DNA from: Flavipsychrobacter sp.
GTDB taxonomy: Bacteria > Bacteroidota > Bacteroidia > Chitinophagales > Chitinophagaceae
NCBI GenBank assembly: GCA_031292525.1
Contig: JARLGY010000053.1
Location: forward strand, 62,001-126,000
Reading direction: 5' to 3'
DNA: 64,000 nt
A program made the translations under genes and the position numbers. Shown piece by piece: positions 18,808 to 27,140 of this stretch; within the stretch, counting starts at the first letter, position 1; each line of letters starts with the position of its first letter. The notes under the pieces were generated by a model. That model searched no databases, was not told the origin of the DNA, and saw only the letters and a list, made by a program, of their open reading frames with translations.

Positions 18808-18940
18808 GGTGAAATAGTTTTTTAGTTTGTTTAACACTCAATAAATACTATGCCAAGCAATATAAATGGGACAAAAAAACCAACACCATATAATTAATAA
18901 ATTATATGCCAAAGAAACAGGTGAGCTTTAGGGGAAATAA

Positions 18941-18966
18941 AAAAGGGCTAAGAATAGCCCCTTACA
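18941..18966 (-). terminator. Minus-strand terminator (distal of two)
   Basis: Stem GGGCTA / TAGCCC with an AGAA tetraloop, followed on the minus strand by a run of six T. It lies downstream of the membrane-protein gene ending at 19091 and behind a second hairpin at 19033-19075. Confidence 0.65.
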
Positions 18967-19032
18967 GTTGTATCTATGTAAAAAAATCAAAGCCTTTGAC
19001 TGTGGAATGAATGAGAAGTTTAAAGGCACCAG

Positions 19033-19075
19033 AAAAAAATATCCCGGACGGGTTGCTTAGTGCAAATATCCGGGC
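19033..19075 (-). terminator. Minus-strand terminator (proximal) after the GT-C array
   Basis: CCCGGA / TCCGGG stem with a 20-base loop, followed on the minus strand by ATATTTTTTT. It sits 16 bp past the stop of the last gene of the glycosyltransferase-like block. Confidence 0.55.
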
Positions 19076-19090
19076 TGTTTTCCCAGCTAC

Positions 19091-20872
19091 TTACTCATCA
19101 AACTTCCAGACCTTAAGATTGTCTACTTCCATTACTTTATCCTCATCACCATTGTAAAAGGATATGCTTATACTATTAAAAGGTTGGGTAGGCATTTCTG
19201 TATCTATCCACAGGTCCTGCTTATTACCGTGGTGCATAAACCTATCCACGCTTATCATCTGTTTCTTTACCTCTGCGGTGTTATTGTAAAACTTAAGGAT
19301 GAACTGTGCCATGTGCCACGGCTCCCAGGCTTCCATTGGTCTGTAAAATGTAGCTTCGGCGCGTATCCATCCATGTGCTTGTGGTATGTATGCAAACGAA
19401 TAGCTCTTTGAATCTGGGTGTGCTTTATCTAAACACAAAGACCGGTTGCCTGCTATAGGTGGCAAGCTGCAATGGTTTTCCGTATCGTCTTCAAAGCCAT
19501 TTTCGTACAGCAACTTTTTATTGTTCAATGTGCCTGTGTATATTTTATCATACCTGTCCAGTAGCTTCTTTTTCTCTTCTGGTATTGTAAACCTGCCTAT
19601 TGCCGACCAATAGTACGGATTAGTCATGTAAGGATCGTAAGCATTGCCTGCGTGCTCAATGTAGGTAAACCATATGTTTATATATAAGAATAAAATAAAA
19701 ATGGGAGCCAGTACTACAAGCCATACTCTTTTACGCAACATTACCTCCAGCAGAGCAGCTATGGGCAACATGAGTATAGGATAACTTTGCACCATGGCCC
19801 GCCCACCAAACCACCATATATCCCAGGAGCTGACCACATAAAAATTGAGTAGGAGAAAAGATACTACCATTATCCTGTTCTTCCCATACTTTATAAAAGG
19901 TATCAGCCCCACAAAAGCAAACATCATCATGGGGGTAAATGTGAGCCAGCCACTACGAAAGCTGAGCGGATAATCGTAAAGATGTGGCTGGAACCACGAA
20001 AAACCCTGGTCCTGATAACTATACACTATCCAGTGCCCAGATGCATACTTCCAGTACATCATCTGTACAAATACTACAGATGCAGCACATACTACAGTTA
20101 CGATTATAAGTTTCAAATGCTTTTTATAGAAAGCAAGGCGTTCTTTAATGGCTTGGGAGGAGAAACTTTCCATTCCCCAAAGCAATGGTATGAGGCATGA
20201 AATGGTCTCTGTGGGCCGTGTAAGTGTAAGCAAACCCATTAAAAAACCAGTAATAGCCGCATATTTGGCGTTAGGTCTGTCGTAATAGGCACGGGTGGAT
20301 AACAGCAGGAATACATACAGTGTGAACAACCAGGTATGCGACATACCCGTATCTATAGCGCCGTAATTAAGATAGTTGGTGCCGAATACCAGAATAATTA
20401 ATGCAAGAGCCACCACAGTATCACTGTAATATTTCTTCAAAAACCTTCTAAAATACCACAGCCCTATCAAGGACATGATAAGACCTCCTACTTGTATGGC
20501 AAACTGGTATGGTGCCGAAAGGCCATCGGCAGGATAACCCATAGCTTTTGCAGCAAAATGTGCCGCTGTAAAGTAGGGAAGGAACATAACCGCCATACCA
20601 GAAGAATACTTCATCACGTAATTACCACTATTACTATCCAGGAAGGCTTCCTGGAAATCGGGAGTAGGCTCGTACTTTTTGAGCAGGCTATCTTTAAACT
20701 GCTGATGTTTAAGATCCTTATAAATAAATATTGAAGGCAGGTACCAGTAGTAGCCACTCACATCCCACGCTATTGCAGCTTGTTCATGAGGTTGCTTCCA
20801 TCGTGGGTAAAAACTAAATGAAGCATACAGCATCAACAACAAACAAGAAAAATAGGATATACGGGATAGCAT
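19091..20872 (-). CDS. Polytopic membrane protein, GT-C glycosyltransferase-like (copy A1)
   Basis: A 593-residue integral membrane protein with about ten hydrophobic segments over residues 1-410 and a ~180-residue soluble C-terminal domain, probably periplasmic. The first loop after TM1 carries WDVSGYYWYLPS with Asp37, the place where GT-C enzymes keep their catalytic acid. Other conserved-looking blocks: GTNYLNYGAIDTGMSHTW, LTLTRPTETISC and FGGRAMVQSYPILMLP. The C-terminal part has a jelly-roll look (RAEATFYRPMEAWEP). It is a full-length paralogue of the next gene upstream (20930-22714), clearly from tandem duplication. The donor is probably a lipid-linked sugar; substrate unknown. Confidence 0.75.
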   Translation of the reverse strand: MLSRISYFSCLLLMLYASFSFYPRWKQPHEQAAIAWDVSGYYWYLPSIFIYKDLKHQQFKDSLLKKYEPTPDFQEAFLDSNSGNYVMKYSSGMAVMFLPYFTAAHFAAKAMGYPADGLSAPYQFAIQVGGLIMSLIGLWYFRRFLKKYYSDTVVALALIILVFGTNYLNYGAIDTGMSHTWLFTLYVFLLLSTRAYYDRPNAKYAAITGFLMGLLTLTRPTETISCLIPLLWGMESFSSQAIKERLAFYKKHLKLIIVTVVCAASVVFVQMMYWKYASGHWIVYSYQDQGFSWFQPHLYDYPLSFRSGWLTFTPMMMFAFVGLIPFIKYGKNRIMVVSFLLLNFYVVSSWDIWWFGGRAMVQSYPILMLPIAALLEVMLRKRVWLVVLAPIFILFLYINIWFTYIEHAGNAYDPYMTNPYYWSAIGRFTIPEEKKKLLDRYDKIYTGTLNNKKLLYENGFEDDTENHCSLPPIAGNRSLCLDKAHPDSKSYSFAYIPQAHGWIRAEATFYRPMEAWEPWHMAQFILKFYNNTAEVKKQMISVDRFMHHGNKQDLWIDTEMPTQPFNSISISFYNGDEDKVMEVDNLKVWKFDE

Positions 20873-20929
20873 AGTAAAATATTGGTTTGAAAAATATACC
20901 GACAGGGTTCGTCGCTTTCATCAGGTAGT

Positions 20930-22714
20930 TTAGTCGTTAAAGCCCCATACTTTCAGATTATCTGCCTCAAGTATTTTATCTTTTTCTCCGTTGTACAGCA
21001 ATATGGTTACACTATCAAATGGTTGTTGTGGTGTTCTTACGTCGAGATAAACATTTCTTGTATCCCTGTTATGCATAAACCGGTCTATTCTTATCATTTG
21101 TATCATGATCTCTTTATCCTTGTTATAAAACTTGACGTTGAACTGCGCCATATCCCACACATCCCATACCTCGCTTGGGCGGCGAAAGGTAGCTTCTGCT
21201 CGCAACCATTTCAGGTTCCCAGGCCTATATGCAAATGTGTAGTTGGGTGAGTATTTATGTTCTTTATCCAGGCATAGTGACTGTGTGCCAGATATAGGAG
21301 GAAGTGTACAGTGGCTGGTAGTATCATTCTCAAAATCGTTTTGATACAACAGTTTTTTGTCTTTGGGTGTACCTGTAAACAGTTCATCTTCGTTGTCCAG
21401 CAGCTTCCACACCTCATCATTTATCGTAAACCTACCCACCACTGCTTTGTAGTAGTGCCTATTCATCATATCGGGCACATATATGCCATTACGGTGTTCG
21501 GCATAGGTGATCCATATATTCATAAATGCAAACACCAATATCGCGGGAATAAGTATTACCTGCAAAACACGTTTGCGTGTCATTGCTTCCATTAGCGCTG
21601 CCACCGGGATCATCAGTATAGGGTAGCTTTGTACCATAGCACGGCCTCCATACCACCATACGTCCCAGGCGCTCACTATGTAATAGTTGAGCAGGAAGAA
21701 AATTAATACAGCTACTTTGTTCTTCCCATTCATTGCAAACGGGATGATACCAGCAAAGGCCAACACCATCATGGGTGTGTAGGTGAGCCAGCCACTCTTA
21801 AAGCTCAGTGCATATACGTATGAATGGGGATGCAACCAGGAAAAACCCTGATCCTGGTAGCTATAAACCAGCCAATGCCCACTGGCGTACTTCCAGTATA
21901 TAAGCTGTATAGAAATAACTGCGGCAGCACAAACTGCTGTTATCACTAATTGAAGGATGTGGAGTTTAAAGAAATTAAGCCTCTCCTTTATTGTTGCGAA
22001 TGAAACGCTATTAATTCCCCATAGTATGGGTATAAGGCAACTGATGATCTCTGTGGGGCGCGTAAGCGTAGCAAGCCCTATAAGCAAACCAATGGCTACA
22101 GCATACTTCACCTTCGGGGTTTGATAATAGTAGTGTGTAGCAAGCAGCAGGAAAACATAAACAGTAAACAACCAGTTGTGGCTCATGGCGGTATCTATGG
22201 CGCTGTAGTTAAGATAGTTGGTGCCAAATACCAATACCAACAACACCATGGCTACCACGCCATCACTATAATACAATTTCAAAAACCTCCTGAAGAACCA
22301 AAGTCCTAACAAAGCCACCAGTACCCCACCTATTTGCAAAGACAACTGGTAGGGCGCTGAGAAGCCGTCAGCAGGATAACCCAAGGCACCTGCCAGCAGA
22401 TGCGCAGCCGTAAAGAAAGGCAAACTCATTACTGCCACGCCTGATGAGTATTTCATAATATAGCTGCCACTTGCGCTATCCATAAACACCTGTTGATCAT
22501 CATAAGTGGGGTGGTATTTGTTTATGATGCTGTCTTTAAAAGATTGGTGCTTGGCATCGTGGTAAATAAGGAATGACGGTAAGTACCAATAATACCCACT
22601 CGCATCCCAGCTTATTGTCGCTTCTGAATTGCCCTGTTTCCATTTAGGGTAAAAGCTAAATGAGGCATACAGCATGAGTAAAGCGCAGGCAAAATAAGAG
22701 ATACGGGAAAGCAT
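20930..22714 (-). CDS. Polytopic membrane protein, GT-C glycosyltransferase-like (copy A2)
   Basis: A 594-residue paralogue of A1. The same opening MLSRISYF, the same WDASGYYWYLPSFLI loop with Asp37, GTNYLNYSAIDTAMSHNW, LTRPTEIISC, and WWYGGRAMVQSYPILM; the C-terminal soluble domain is also shared (LRAEATFRRPSEVWDVWDMA). Similarity is even along the whole length, so the duplication is old and both copies seem constrained. It is separated from A1 by 57 bp with no terminator, consistent with one transcript. The C-terminal region may bind carbohydrate; that is inference from its beta-rich look. Confidence 0.75.
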   Translation of the reverse strand: MLSRISYFACALLMLYASFSFYPKWKQGNSEATISWDASGYYWYLPSFLIYHDAKHQSFKDSIINKYHPTYDDQQVFMDSASGSYIMKYSSGVAVMSLPFFTAAHLLAGALGYPADGFSAPYQLSLQIGGVLVALLGLWFFRRFLKLYYSDGVVAMVLLVLVFGTNYLNYSAIDTAMSHNWLFTVYVFLLLATHYYYQTPKVKYAVAIGLLIGLATLTRPTEIISCLIPILWGINSVSFATIKERLNFFKLHILQLVITAVCAAAVISIQLIYWKYASGHWLVYSYQDQGFSWLHPHSYVYALSFKSGWLTYTPMMVLAFAGIIPFAMNGKNKVAVLIFFLLNYYIVSAWDVWWYGGRAMVQSYPILMIPVAALMEAMTRKRVLQVILIPAILVFAFMNIWITYAEHRNGIYVPDMMNRHYYKAVVGRFTINDEVWKLLDNEDELFTGTPKDKKLLYQNDFENDTTSHCTLPPISGTQSLCLDKEHKYSPNYTFAYRPGNLKWLRAEATFRRPSEVWDVWDMAQFNVKFYNKDKEIMIQMIRIDRFMHNRDTRNVYLDVRTPQQPFDSVTILLYNGEKDKILEADNLKVWGFND

Positions 22715-22752
22715 GGTTAAATGTACGTTTAATCGTTAAAAACAGCTCACTG

Positions 22753-23403
22753 TCAGTACACATGCGGTGCGTAGGGTATTACCTTGTTTTCTTTTACCTC
22801 ACCTGTCAGAGCGTCTATAATTACCATATCATCTTTTACCGTATTATGGCCGCTTGTATTTTTTTCATTCCATATGGTGCGTAAAACGATCCATGCATAG
22901 TCGCGGCCCAGGGCAGTGCTGTGTATATAAGCATATGGTTCTGAAATGCTGTAGTGCAATTTTTGCTGCAAGGCGATCTCTATAGCTTTCTCTTTGGTTA
23001 TAAACCTGCAACTATCATCATCAATTGCAAACCTGGGCACAAAGCCCTTATCAATATCCTCTATCAGATGCAGAGCCGTATCCAGGTACACCGTAATGCC
23101 TTCTGTGATAGTATCCATACAGGGGCATTTAGGATATGGCATCACGAAGTTGTAATGCACAGCTACACTCATAAAATGGTTGCATGTCATCCCCTTACCC
23201 AATTTTTTAAAGTGCTCTTTCTTCTTCTTTTCGTAGCTGTAATAACTGCCCTTATCATCTGGCAGGCAGTAATGAAATAATGTTCCCATTTTAGCCGACA
23301 GTATGCTATCGGCCTGTTCCATTATCTGCACGTGGCTATAACGCTGCCCATAGCAGGCACCACACATTAAAACCAACAAACAACAGGTAATGAAACGCTT
23401 CAT
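22753..23403 (-). CDS. Secreted protein with PepSY-like C-terminus
   Basis: A 216-residue protein with signal peptide MKRFITCCLLVLMCGACYGQ (signal peptidase I site before QRYSH more likely than lipidation). A CPCMD motif occurs near residue 98. The C-terminal part shows the pattern ITKEKAIEIALQQKL ... YAWIVLRTIW ... MVIIDALTGEVKENK, as in PepSY-type domains. It sits between the two glycosyltransferase-like pairs, 38 bp upstream of A2 and on the same strand, so it is probably in the same operon. I have no specific function for it. Confidence 0.7.
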   Translation of the reverse strand: MKRFITCCLLVLMCGACYGQRYSHVQIMEQADSILSAKMGTLFHYCLPDDKGSYYSYEKKKKEHFKKLGKGMTCNHFMSVAVHYNFVMPYPKCPCMDTITEGITVYLDTALHLIEDIDKGFVPRFAIDDDSCRFITKEKAIEIALQQKLHYSISEPYAYIHSTALGRDYAWIVLRTIWNEKNTSGHNTVKDDMVIIDALTGEVKENKVIPYAPHVY

Positions 23404-23425
23404 GTTGTTTTGAAATTAATAAAAT

Positions 23426-25009
23426 TTATTTCAGCCTGTATATTTCTGCCCACAAACCATTGTGTTCCGCTCGGTAAACCAGGCTGTTTTTGTACTTATT
23501 CTTTATACCATCGTAAATACCACTGGGCTCAATATTATTGAATATTACCAGTTGGGTAGTATCGGTAATCTGTTTCCCAACGTGCATAAATTCCTTTTGT
23601 TGAATAAAGCCTGTGTTGGGATCTGTAAGATGTGCGTAATCCTGGTAACCAGTAGTTGTGATATAGTTGGTATAATATTGTTTCCGCTGCAGGTACTGTA
23701 CTACGTCTTGCTGCAACTTCATCCCATCAAAAGCACCCATGTCAGTATCTCCCGATCCTTTACTATCCTTCAAACCATAAACACCTATAAGTGCAATCAC
23801 GGGTAAGAATGCTATATAAATTGGTGCATAGATCAAGGCTATTATCCTATCCAGGTAGTAGGAGGCAAGTATAAGAACCATGAGCAGTGCGGGTATTGTA
23901 TATCTTGCAGTATAAAAGTTAACAGCACAGAAGCAGATGTAAAGCGCTATAAAATATATCCCTAACTGGATAAATGTGCTGCTTGCTTTATCATTCGTAC
24001 CTGTGAATGATCTCAACACATTCGACATTCCTACTACAGACAGCATTAATGTCAGCGCCAATACCCTTCTGGATATAAGATGTCCGTAGCCCCCACTAAT
24101 GCAGATGTACACTTGTACAGCAATAAGTAAAGGAAGCAAGTATTTAGCCTTCCTTGTTTTAACTGCAATGATCACTGACCCCAATAATAAAATACAGAAT
24201 AGATAACTGCGGCAATCATTATTGAACAGAATTTGCACCATGTATTTTATCTTATCCCAGTCGTGCGCCCAACCGAAAGATATATACCCCATGTGCTCAG
24301 GAAAAAAGAACCAACCATTCAGTAATTTTTGTGCTACGAAAAAACCGGTTATCCCCAAGCCTGCAAATAAAACAGGTAAAAAATTAGCTAGACGCTCTTT
24401 TAGCAGTTTTGTTGTGGTGAATAATTTTATTGTAGCATCAACACCAAGAAGCAAGCCGGTAACCATCCCGCTTTCTTTGGTGAACAAGAGTGCTATTAAA
24501 GAGACAAAAGTAAGCACGTGCCTGCGGGTACTATAGAAATAGATACTCAGCAAAGACAAGAGCGCCACCATGATCTCTGGCAGCAACATGGTTGATTGAA
24601 CAAAAAATATAACCTGTAATGGAAAAATGGCCAGGGTGAGCAGCGCTGTTCTTTTATTAAACAAATGCCTGCACACCTCATATACACTGATGATCAACAG
24701 CACAAACAACAACAATGCAAATGCATGTTGCGAGAAAGCGCTCGGACCGAATATCTTCATCCAGGCGGCCGTGCAAAAATAGAACAGCAACGGGTGGCCC
24801 CTTGAATAATTGATATCAATAGCATTAGGCATCAGGCTAGGGCCATGCTCATACATTAATCTTATGGCAGGCTCGTAACTCCACGATTCATCCCAATAGA
24901 AAGAATAGTAAAGATGGGGAATTTTACAAACAACAAATATTACAACAACCAGCCACAGCATCCACCTGCCTTTAAAATAATTGAGAATTGCTGAAGTATT
25001 CTGTTGCAT
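23426..25009 (-). CDS. GT39/ArnT-like membrane glycosyltransferase (copy B1)
   Basis: A 527-residue membrane protein with about ten hydrophobic segments. The first periplasmic loop has FYWDESWSYEPAIRLM; the Asp40-Glu41 pair is the hallmark of the dolichyl-phosphate-mannose / ArnT family of GT-C transferases, which move a sugar from a polyprenyl carrier. The next block, SRGHPLLFYFCTAAWMKIFG, and LPEIMVALLSLLSIYFYSTR fit the same family. The C-terminal ~90 residues are soluble and end in EHNGLWAEIYRLK. It is a paralogue of the adjacent B2; N-terminal halves are nearly identical. The next gene downstream follows after 22 bp. Confidence 0.8.
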   Translation of the reverse strand: MQQNTSAILNYFKGRWMLWLVVVIFVVCKIPHLYYSFYWDESWSYEPAIRLMYEHGPSLMPNAIDINYSRGHPLLFYFCTAAWMKIFGPSAFSQHAFALLLFVLLIISVYEVCRHLFNKRTALLTLAIFPLQVIFFVQSTMLLPEIMVALLSLLSIYFYSTRRHVLTFVSLIALLFTKESGMVTGLLLGVDATIKLFTTTKLLKERLANFLPVLFAGLGITGFFVAQKLLNGWFFFPEHMGYISFGWAHDWDKIKYMVQILFNNDCRSYLFCILLLGSVIIAVKTRKAKYLLPLLIAVQVYICISGGYGHLISRRVLALTLMLSVVGMSNVLRSFTGTNDKASSTFIQLGIYFIALYICFCAVNFYTARYTIPALLMVLILASYYLDRIIALIYAPIYIAFLPVIALIGVYGLKDSKGSGDTDMGAFDGMKLQQDVVQYLQRKQYYTNYITTTGYQDYAHLTDPNTGFIQQKEFMHVGKQITDTTQLVIFNNIEPSGIYDGIKNKYKNSLVYRAEHNGLWAEIYRLK

Positions 25010-25149
25010 GTATAATCTATAATTGCATACTGGCCTGCAATATGTAAAACTACTAATGCGCCAGCTATTAAATTGTAAATATCAATTTCGGCTATTCAGG
25101 CAACAAGAACAATTGAGCAATATACAGCGTCTTCAGACAATTAGCGCTG

Positions 25150-26727
25150 CTATTTCAGCCTATATATTTCACCCCACAACCCGTTGTGTTCTGTCCTGTA
25201 AACCAGCTTGCCTTTTTCCTTTATGCCATTGTAAATATCGCTGGGCTCAATGTTGTTGAAAATTACAAGCTGGGTGGTGTCGGTAACGCGCTGGGTGACA
25301 TGCTCAAACTCCTTCTGTTCCATAAAGCCAGTCCTGGGATCTGTGAGATGTACAAAATCCTGGTAGCTGCTTGCGGCTATATAGCTTTTATACTGCTTAT
25401 TGTCCTGCATGTATTTTACAATATCCTGCTCCACCTTCATGCCCCCAAAAGCTGCCATGTCAATATCACCAAATCCCTTGTCATTATTAATAGCATACTG
25501 CCCGGTTAAAATAATAATGAGCGCAACGATCAGATAAATGGGATCGTAGAACATAGCTATCAACCTATCCAGGTAGTAGGCGGTCAGTACCAGCAATACT
25601 GCAAGTGCAGGAATAGTGTATCTGTCGGTATAGAAATTGGTGGCACAAAAACTCATGTAAAGGACAATAAACCACAACGCAAGCTGTATAAACAATCTAC
25701 CCTCTTGCTGCTCTTTATTGGTAAAAGACCAAAGTTGTTTCGTCATAGCCAAAATGGTTAATGCCAATACCACTGTTACCGCCTGCCTGGGTACTATATC
25801 ATCGTAAACTTCATTGATAGAAATATATACCAAGAAAGCGATAAGTACAGGAAGCAGATACTTTATCTTCCTTGTATTGATACTCAATATCAATGCAAAG
25901 AACATTACGATCTGGAACAAACGTAGGCGGGCGTCATCTGTAAACAGTATGCCTAGCATACACTTTATTTCTCCCCATGCCCTATCCCACTTAAAAGAAA
26001 CAAGCCCCAGGTGTTGCGGAAAAAAGTACCACCCATTTAGCAATCTCTGCCCTACAAAAAAACTGGCTATACCTACGCCTGCAAATAAAACAGGTAAAAA
26101 ATTAACTAAGCGCTCTTTGACGGATGTTCTTCTATTAAATAGTTTTATTGTAGCATCAGCACCAAGTAGCAACCCGGTAACCATCCCACTTTCTTTAGTG
26201 AGCAACAATGCAAGTAAAGTGATAAATGTAAGAATATGCCTGCGGGTACAATAGAAATAGATACTCAGCAAAGACAATAGCGCTACCATAATTTCTGGCA
26301 GCAACATGGTTGACTGCACAAAAAATATAACCTGTAGCGGGAAGATGGCTAGTGTGAGCAGTGCCGTTCTTTTATTAAACAAATACCTGCACACCTCATA
26401 TGCCCCAATGATAAGCAGAACAAATAAAAAGAGTGCAAATGCATGTTGTGAGAAAGCACTCGGACCGAATATCTTCATCCATGCAGATGCACAAAAATAG
26501 AATAGCAAAGGATGCCCCCTTGAATAGTCTGTATCAATTGCATTGGGCATCAGGCTGGGGCCATGCTCGTACATTAATCTTATAGCAGGCTCGTAACTCC
26601 ACGATTCATCCCAATAAAAAGGATAGTAGAGATGGGGAATTTTGTAGACAATAAATGCTGCAACAGTCGCCCACAGTATCCACCTGTCTTTAAAATACTT
26701 GAGGATCGTTGAGGTAATGAAGGGCAT
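25150..26727 (-). CDS. GT39/ArnT-like membrane glycosyltransferase (copy B2)
   Basis: A 525-residue paralogue of B1 with the same FYWDESWSYEPAIRLM loop (Asp40-Glu41) and the same tail, EHNGLWGEIYRLK. The ATG at 26727 (MPFITSTILKYFKDRW) is preferred: it aligns with the start of B1, whereas the longer open frame to 26817 would run into a strong terminator hairpin (26795-26828). Identity with B1 is very high over the first ~200 residues, lower in the middle and high again at the tail. The 140-bp gap to B1 has no clear terminator. Sugar and acceptor are unknown. Confidence 0.8.
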   Translation of the reverse strand: MPFITSTILKYFKDRWILWATVAAFIVYKIPHLYYPFYWDESWSYEPAIRLMYEHGPSLMPNAIDTDYSRGHPLLFYFCASAWMKIFGPSAFSQHAFALFLFVLLIIGAYEVCRYLFNKRTALLTLAIFPLQVIFFVQSTMLLPEIMVALLSLLSIYFYCTRRHILTFITLLALLLTKESGMVTGLLLGADATIKLFNRRTSVKERLVNFLPVLFAGVGIASFFVGQRLLNGWYFFPQHLGLVSFKWDRAWGEIKCMLGILFTDDARLRLFQIVMFFALILSINTRKIKYLLPVLIAFLVYISINEVYDDIVPRQAVTVVLALTILAMTKQLWSFTNKEQQEGRLFIQLALWFIVLYMSFCATNFYTDRYTIPALAVLLVLTAYYLDRLIAMFYDPIYLIVALIIILTGQYAINNDKGFGDIDMAAFGGMKVEQDIVKYMQDNKQYKSYIAASSYQDFVHLTDPRTGFMEQKEFEHVTQRVTDTTQLVIFNNIEPSDIYNGIKEKGKLVYRTEHNGLWGEIYRLK

Positions 26728-26794: not shown

Positions 26795-26828
26795 AATAAA
26801 AAAGCCGCCTCAAACAAATGAGGCGGCT
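26795..26828 (-). terminator. Terminator after the DUF2795 gene
   Basis: Perfect 9-bp stem AGCCGCCTC / GAGGCGGCT with an 8-base loop and a T-rich tract on the minus strand. It separates the DUF2795 gene from the glycosyltransferase-like block. Confidence 0.85.
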
Positions 26829-26853
26829 AAATTTCTATTGCCCTTCGATGGTT

Positions 26854-27075
26854 TTAATATTCGTCTTCATTGAAGAAGAAGTCCTCCTGTGTAGGATAGT
26901 CGGGCCAAATGTCTTCTATACCTTCATATATTTCACCTTCGTCATCAAGTTCCTGCAGGTTCTCAACAACTTCCAGTGGAGCGCCAGAGCGAATGGCGTA
27001 ATCTATCAATTCGTCCTTGGTGGCTGGCCAGGGTGCGTCTTCAAGATGAGAGGCAAGTTCTAATGTCCAAAACAT
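26854..27075 (-). CDS. DUF2795 small protein
   Basis: A 73-residue acidic protein beginning MFWTLELASHLEDAPWPATK. The N-terminal half, with LEDAPWPATKDELIDYAIR followed by GAPLEVVENLQEL, matches DUF2795, a small domain widespread in bacteria with no established role. The C-terminal third is very acidic and aromatic (DIWPDYPTQEDFFFNEDEY). It has its own promoter (27109-27140) and terminator, so it is an independent unit rather than part of the glycosyltransferase-like block. Confidence 0.85.
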   Translation of the reverse strand: MFWTLELASHLEDAPWPATKDELIDYAIRSGAPLEVVENLQELDDEGEIYEGIEDIWPDYPTQEDFFFNEDEY

Positions 27076-27108
27076 ATTATGAATTTAATTATTTTATATA
27101 GAATCACG

Positions 27109-27140
27109 CAAATGTAACGTATTTTTTATGTACATAACAA
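27109..27140 (-). promoter_or_regulatory. Promoter of the DUF2795 gene
   Basis: On the minus strand TTG (27140-27138), 21-bp spacer, then perfect -7 TACATTTG (27116-27109), 33 bp before the start codon. The rest of the 257-bp divergent gap to the ABC ATPase gene shows no further feature I can support. Confidence 0.6.

Follow-up and report, generated by a model that had tools for sequence, protein, structure and literature searches.

In a 64,000-nucleotide stretch of a Flavipsychrobacter sp. genome (contig JARLGY010000053.1, positions 62,001 to 126,000 of the forward strand; hereafter, the window), five minus-strand genes encode two pairs of predicted GT-C-type glycosyltransferases, denoted A1/A2 and B1/B2, and a secreted protein, P, located between the pairs. 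The explanation that we find fairly probable is that A1 and A2 are periplasmic enzymes that take a single sugar from a polyprenyl-phosphate donor and attach it to a glycan bound by a C-terminal module of the enzyme itself. Family A is new, although the kind of enzyme is already known: neither A1 nor A2, the two members scanned, passes any Pfam or NCBIfam cut-off (A2 gave nothing at E-values up to 1, and A1 only sub-threshold noise), and no description of the family was found in the titles and abstract openings of the literature searched. Knowledge of periplasmic glycosylation in Bacteroidota is sparse; for O-glycosylation in this phylum, the oligosaccharyltransferase and the ligase are reported as undiscovered (PMC12871550). 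The combination of fold, module and partner gene makes the activity of A directly testable.

The genes of the block are as follows (ORF, open reading frame).
19091-20872, minus strand: A1, 593 residues, predicted GT-C transferase with a C-terminal carbohydrate-binding module (ORF; fold by way of the identity to the modelled A2)
20930-22714, minus strand: A2, 594 residues, predicted GT-C transferase (residues 1-430) with a C-terminal carbohydrate-binding module (residues ~450-594) (modelled protein)
22753-23403, minus strand: P, 216 residues, secreted protein, weakly PepSY-like (ORF, Pfam, alignment)
23426-25009, minus strand: B1, 527 residues, PMT_2-type transferase with an Asp-Glu first loop (ORF, Pfam, alignment)
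25150-26727, minus strand: B2, 525 residues counted from ATG (the mechanical ORF extends to a TTG at 26817), PMT_2-type transferase with an Asp-Glu first loop (ORF, Pfam, alignment)

These ORFs are located where an earlier sequence-only reading had placed them, with an A pair of 593-594 residues and a B pair of 525-527 residues around the secreted protein. Both pairs are, as that reading proposed, tandem duplicates: A1 and A2 are identical at 370 of 594 positions (62%) over the whole length, and B1 and B2 at 349 of 523 (67%). The observation itself is confirmed; its interpretation, a locus for adding sugars to lipid, glycan or protein, is partly supported by the results below.

Predicted fold and C-terminal module of the A family

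The structure of A2 was predicted from an 80-row alignment that consisted of A1, A2 and 78 homologs from named genomes (two of the 80 loci were left out because of stops or frame), with a mean predicted local distance difference test score (pLDDT) of 93.9 and a predicted template modelling score of 0.91. In this model, residues 1-430 match GT-C enzymes with Z-scores of 12-25, the best match being the mannosyltransferase ALG12 (Z 25.4 over 345 residues), followed by eukaryotic oligosaccharyltransferase (OST) subunits (Z 18-21), ArnT (5f15; 19.7), Pmt4 (18.7), ALG9 (18.4) and AftB (17.5); the typical best Z for helical models is ~14, as reported by the search tool, and the matches named here exceed that value. 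The predicted fold supports the assignment of A to the GT-C glycosyltransferases. The absence of such a fold in A, which the sequence-only reading had named as one finding that would speak against it, is not what the confident model indicates.

In the model, Asp37 belongs to the loop that follows the first helix (residues 2-21), where a GT-C enzyme carries its first-loop acid, and this placement agrees with the earlier claim of a single Asp in the equivalent position. Together with Tyr41, Arg219 and Arg358, Asp37 is conserved in all 32 rows of an alignment that was not chosen by motif (A1 and A2 included), drawn from the 71 A rows found in a search of 147 relative genomes, our own included. 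In the 80-row alignment, 78 rows were retrieved through the motif D[VAS]xGYYxYLP, which biases the conservation inside it (Asp37 in 80/80).

The soluble C-terminal part, which had been called a domain of unusual type, turns out to resemble a known one: in the predicted structure, residues ~450-594 match jelly-roll carbohydrate-binding modules, namely, a porphyran-binding module (8xmz, Z 12.2) and CBM16 (Z 12.0), and Trp520 within this part is kept in 75 of the 80 rows. The Foldseek list for A2 is topped by the Emb arabinosyltransferases, which align over both parts (whole-chain root-mean-square deviation of 13-14 Å). Given these module matches and the combination of both parts in Emb, the C-terminal domain of A probably is an acceptor-binding module.

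Comparison with known systems

The mycobacterial arabinosyltransferases EmbA, EmbB and EmbC resemble A, as seen in its predicted structure, in joining a GT-C core to a C-terminal carbohydrate-binding module. They differ in the length of the chain (~1030-1090 residues compared with 593-594) and in the donor, which is a pentofuranose. For A1 and A2, Pfam gave no Emb family at E-values up to 1, and a profile search against PDB sequences gave no Emb chain up to the same E-value. In EmbC, changes of residues in the module are reported to have impaired acceptor binding and activity (PMC3044687). The second comparison, made by description and not by sequence, is with GT136 (ORF12 of Citrobacter youngae O1), described as a GT-C enzyme with a needed first-loop Asp, a C-terminal module, a separate polyprenyl-phosphate-sugar synthase and demonstrated transfer activity (PMC11127046). 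According to the same account, GT136 transfers ribofuranose and is served by a polyprenyl phosphoribose synthase and a MATE-family flippase, whereas the candidate partner of A is a glycosyltransferase family 2 (GT2) protein. The best reading, by analogy, is that A would work like Emb and GT136; we do not claim membership in either.

Among the best fold matches of the core are the dolichyl-phosphate-mannose transferases ALG12 and ALG9, which suggests a single-sugar polyprenyl-phosphate donor for A. They differ from A2 in being only 10-11% identical to it and in matching residues 1-430 alone, and the sequence-profile search of PDB sequences with A gave no ALG12 or ALG9 match.

A GT2 gene as the candidate donor synthase

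The neighborhoods of A were surveyed in the best 80 named loci, many of which end before the full 10 kb flank, with ORFs called mechanically from the longest start. These loci overlap the 147 genomes (L102 is contig 32 of G069, and L171 is contig 75 of G091), so that the two sets of counts are not independent. Of the 64 close same-strand neighbors of A that were scanned, seven belong to Glycos_transf_2, more than to any other Pfam family (66 neighbors were found, the L145 A copy being left out, and two that were A themselves were removed). In nine of the 80 loci, no more than 100 bp separate A from a GT2 gene; eight of these GT2 genes share the strand of A, and four overlap A as the ORFs were called. 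All nine encode proteins 63-77% identical to the product of a gene in our own genome, G000:C60:252190-252891 (L180:10182-10895); three GT2 genes of this cluster that are more distant do not belong to the A-adjacent subfamily. In six of the 39 genomes that carry A, which come from four families, a gene of the subfamily and A are at most 2 kb apart (input: 64 of the 71 A rows, the seven weakest being dropped, and 37 of 77 GT2 rows, that is, all those from 33 A-bearing genomes and three others). At an E-value of 1e-60, with at most 19 candidates scored per genome, it is present in 33 of the 39 A-bearing genomes compared with 37 of the 108 others (Fisher p 5.6e-8, under the assumption, which does not hold, of independent genomes).

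The GT2 protein of our own genome passes Pfam Glycos_transf_2, and the listed relatives of the GT2 gene share 50-85% identity with the L145 query. The nearest families are polyprenyl- and dolichyl-phosphate sugar synthases (AglJ, PpgS), with scores under every curated cut-off; for the L145 protein, the best NCBIfam match is AglJ (TIGR04182) at 99 bits, below the equivalog cut-off of 325. The sequence-only reading had remarked that no sugar-nucleotide or flippase gene is near the block, and this agrees with the flanks, where no sugar-nucleotide, flippase or lpx gene was found among the 15 proteins scanned (four of the 15 without a Pfam match); the GT2 gene at C60, which likely encodes the donor synthase for A, is located in another part of the genome. 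Two GtrA-type genes are located elsewhere as well, on other contigs.

As a separate observation, the A homolog of Phaeodactylibacter xiamenensis (L145:9974-11788) is split by one in-frame stop, directly after its GT2 neighbor.

Proposed mechanism

The mechanism that we propose would start on the cytoplasmic side, where the GT2 synthase encoded at G000:C60:252190-252891 would attach a monosaccharide to polyprenyl phosphate; a flippase would then carry the product across the membrane. A1 and A2, as inner-membrane GT-C glycosyltransferases, would transfer the sugar, with Asp37 as the likely catalytic base, while the C-terminal module would hold the acceptor, for which a glycan in the periplasm or bound to the envelope is most likely. 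B1 and B2 would represent a second kind, PMT_2-type enzymes with an Asp-Glu loop like that of ArnT and GT39. Each pair would be the result of a duplication, after which the copies probably diverged in their preference for donor, linkage or acceptor.

A broader proposal, which we advance only tentatively, is that A and the GT2 protein constitute an undescribed Bacteroidota system decorating an extracytoplasmic glycan, in which a polyprenyl-phosphate hexose synthase would supply a module-bearing GT-C enzyme. A would then found a new family of GT-C enzymes, one that resembles Emb and GT136 by convergence, differs from them in taking a donor made by a GT2 enzyme, and has diversified through repeated duplications.

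Several results weigh against the proposed mechanism. The GT2 gene of our own genome is unlinked to A, 71 of the 80 named loci lack that GT2 within 100 bp of A, and 6 of the 39 A-bearing genomes lack it at an E-value of 1e-60 (one of these, G001, is 69% complete). When only the long, module-bearing A proteins are considered, the co-occurrence with GT2 is weaker (14 of 18 genomes compared with 56 of 129, p 0.01), and given that 37 genomes have the GT2 protein without A, it must serve other enzymes too. Two short A paralogs in the same genome (G000:C23:172864-174075 and G000:C61:11613-12818) lack the carbohydrate-binding module, so that not every member of the family needs it. The 15 flanking proteins offer no sugar or acceptor gene. 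Finally, the structure model of B is too poor to inform on its fold (pLDDT 58.5, built from four sequences), which is assigned by Pfam.

Duplication and spread of A

In a tree of 100 A members built by a quick method, A2 groups with A1 and the ortholog of A1 (92% identical) from G001, a genome of the same genus; the Shimodaira-Hasegawa-like approximate likelihood ratio test support is 99. The G001 contig aligns at 90% to positions 20982-16245 of the window, which cover A1, the sequence that follows it and most of mfd. Its opening bases correspond to the extreme end of A2, which suggests that A2 is present in G001 too, the remainder lying past the end of the contig. Thus, the A1/A2 duplication occurred before these two species diverged and, according to the tree, after their lineage had separated from the other sampled genera. 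A separate tandem duplication of A appears in the tree for G051.

The family is widely spread, a motif scan having confirmed A in at least 577 stretches. The family is present in 39 of the 147 relatives but in 6 of the 296 genomes drawn across the phylum (at most four candidates scored per genome). The best 80 named loci are all titled Bacteroidota; Chitinophagaceae and Saprospiraceae account for most of those titled by family or genus, and four are Hymenobacter. Carriers of A include Hymenobacter wooponensis and Lacibacter luteus.

The B pair and the secreted protein

B1 and B2 pass Pfam PMT_2 with 37.4 and 35.2 bits, respectively (cut-off 26.1), in a match that spans only ~90 residues. The first loop, W39-D40-E41, is conserved in all eight aligned rows, B1 and B2 included, and bears out the Asp-Glu loop noted earlier; through the PMT_2 score and this loop, B resembles PMT_2, GT39 and ArnT. 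A profile search of PDB sequences with B gave no match. For B, then, the GT-C type claimed for both pairs is supported by Pfam PMT_2, and for A by the structure model. Homology between A and B was considered and rejected, no significant sequence similarity being seen (BLASTP E-value of 0.20 for A1 and B2; probability of 1% in the A-B profile comparison).

The earlier label of P as a secreted PepSY-like protein stands as far as secretion is concerned, whereas the PepSY part is weak: P scores 13.3 bits, under the Pfam cut-off of 24, and one of the seven aligned P members reaches PepSY at an E-value of 8e-4.

Do A, B and P form a unit?

Among the 147 genomes, A is carried by 39, B by 28 (seven with a strong full-length match, that is, at least 190 bits) and P by six. 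The idea of the two families as one conserved locus did not hold up: in G069 and G027, A and B are on different long contigs, and among the genomes examined, the full five-gene set was found in the window only. Separate occurrence of the pairs was the other finding that the sequence-only reading had said would count against it, and as to location, it is what we observe. It is quite possible, although we give it less credence than the mechanism proposed above, that the block consists of chance neighbors, namely, two accessory GT-C families, independently duplicated and with unrelated acceptors, an explanation that is compatible with the one we favor for A. The separate contigs and the uniqueness of the five-gene set in the window speak for it, as does the absence of P near A in all 80 named loci. 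Conversely, all seven strong-B genomes and all six P genomes hold an A-family member, with the reservation that the numbers are small and that A is often distant (in four of the strong-B genomes, the only A is 30-36% identical to A2). B also comes within 1.6 kb of A in three of the 80 named loci: it is adjacent in two, L092 (convergent) and L135 (same strand, 2 bp apart), and in the third, L134, a 75-residue B fragment at the contig end is one gene and 1.6 kb away from A. We read the relation between A and B as an association without a fixed operon.

Next to B, at L092:5570-13357, the gene for a protein with a type IX secretion system tail and a GH16 match is located between two copies of A.

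Possible acceptors other than a glycan

That A1/A2 and B1/B2 modify lipid A in the manner of ArnT, with duplication leading to different sugars or lipopolysaccharide positions, appears unlikely. The idea draws on the ArnT match of A (Z 19.7), the Asp-Glu first loop of B, and the B homologs of G069 and G034, which are convergent beside lpxD-lpxC/fabZ-lpxA-ABC operon genes (in G034, the last two only, at a contig end); L092 carries a similar operon close to two A copies and one B copy. However, being convergent with the lpx operon, these B genes are not co-transcribed with it, no lpx gene is among the 15 proteins scanned around the block, and a carbohydrate-binding module would be an unexpected feature of an enzyme with lipid A as acceptor. 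ArnT itself is not known to carry such a module, which also weighs against this explanation.

Somewhat less likely still is that A and B are protein glycosyltransferases, PMT- or OST-like, in or beside the general O-glycosylation of Bacteroidota: the OST subunits and Pmt4 among the fold matches of A2 (Z 18-21 and 18.7), the PMT_2 match of B, the resemblance, below cut-off, of the GT2 partner to polyprenyl- and dolichyl-phosphate hexose synthases, and mannose as the reported common first sugar of Bacteroidota O-glycans (PMC12871550) all fit, but the module suggests a glycan acceptor, and A, found in 39 of the 147 relatives and in 6 of the 296 genomes from across the phylum, is too patchy for a system that is described as enriched in almost every Bacteroidota family (PMC12871550). 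This patchy spread argues that A is not the general O-glycosylation enzyme, and A was rejected as the missing transferase of that system.

At L083:4779-10300 and L084:1534-4503, B homologs are convergent beside lpxD-lpxC/fabZ-lpxA-ABC genes, and the L092 operon mentioned above, near two A copies and a B (L092:1608-13357), is similar, which hints at a link to lipid A or the envelope.

Layout and surroundings of the block

The intergenic gaps, from ORF coordinates, are 57 bp (A1-A2), 38 bp (A2-P), 22 bp (P-B1) and 140 bp (B1-B2). The layout makes co-transcription of the five genes likely. The bounding features are the following.
18963-18942, minus strand: intrinsic terminator-like stem downstream of A1 (9-bp stem and T run)
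~19074-19043, minus strand: second terminator-like stem just past A1, with a T run after it (fold of 18935-19095)
26803-26828, listed on both strands: strong terminator-like stem upstream of B2 that bounds the block (stem scan)
26857-27075, minus strand: DUF2795 gene upstream of B2, with the terminator between them, probably outside the unit (Pfam)

The two stems after A1 match the double terminator that had been described as ending the block; the fold of 18935-19095 has a z-score of -2.56, with 2 of 200 shuffles equally good. Between the upstream terminator and B2, no TAnnTTTG site was found, and with a total of 50 such sites in the window against a chance mean of 69, this is uninformative on whether B2 has a promoter of its own. 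The 15 flanking proteins scanned are mfd, the DUF2795 protein, a LolD-like ABC ATPase, a methyltransferase, the product of a small ORF and ten more, which include glycine dehydrogenase, ketoacyl synthase, RNase III and two peptidases.

The G+C content is 0.41-0.43 across the block and 0.43-0.46 around it, a difference too small to argue from, and foreign origin by base composition was set aside. As to carriage of A by phages or plasmids, there were zero phage records, and the one plasmid record is a 28% partial match. The DUF2795 gene is preceded at a short distance by a TAnnTTTG site (27109-27116) and followed by a strong terminator-like stem (window positions 26803-27116 in all).

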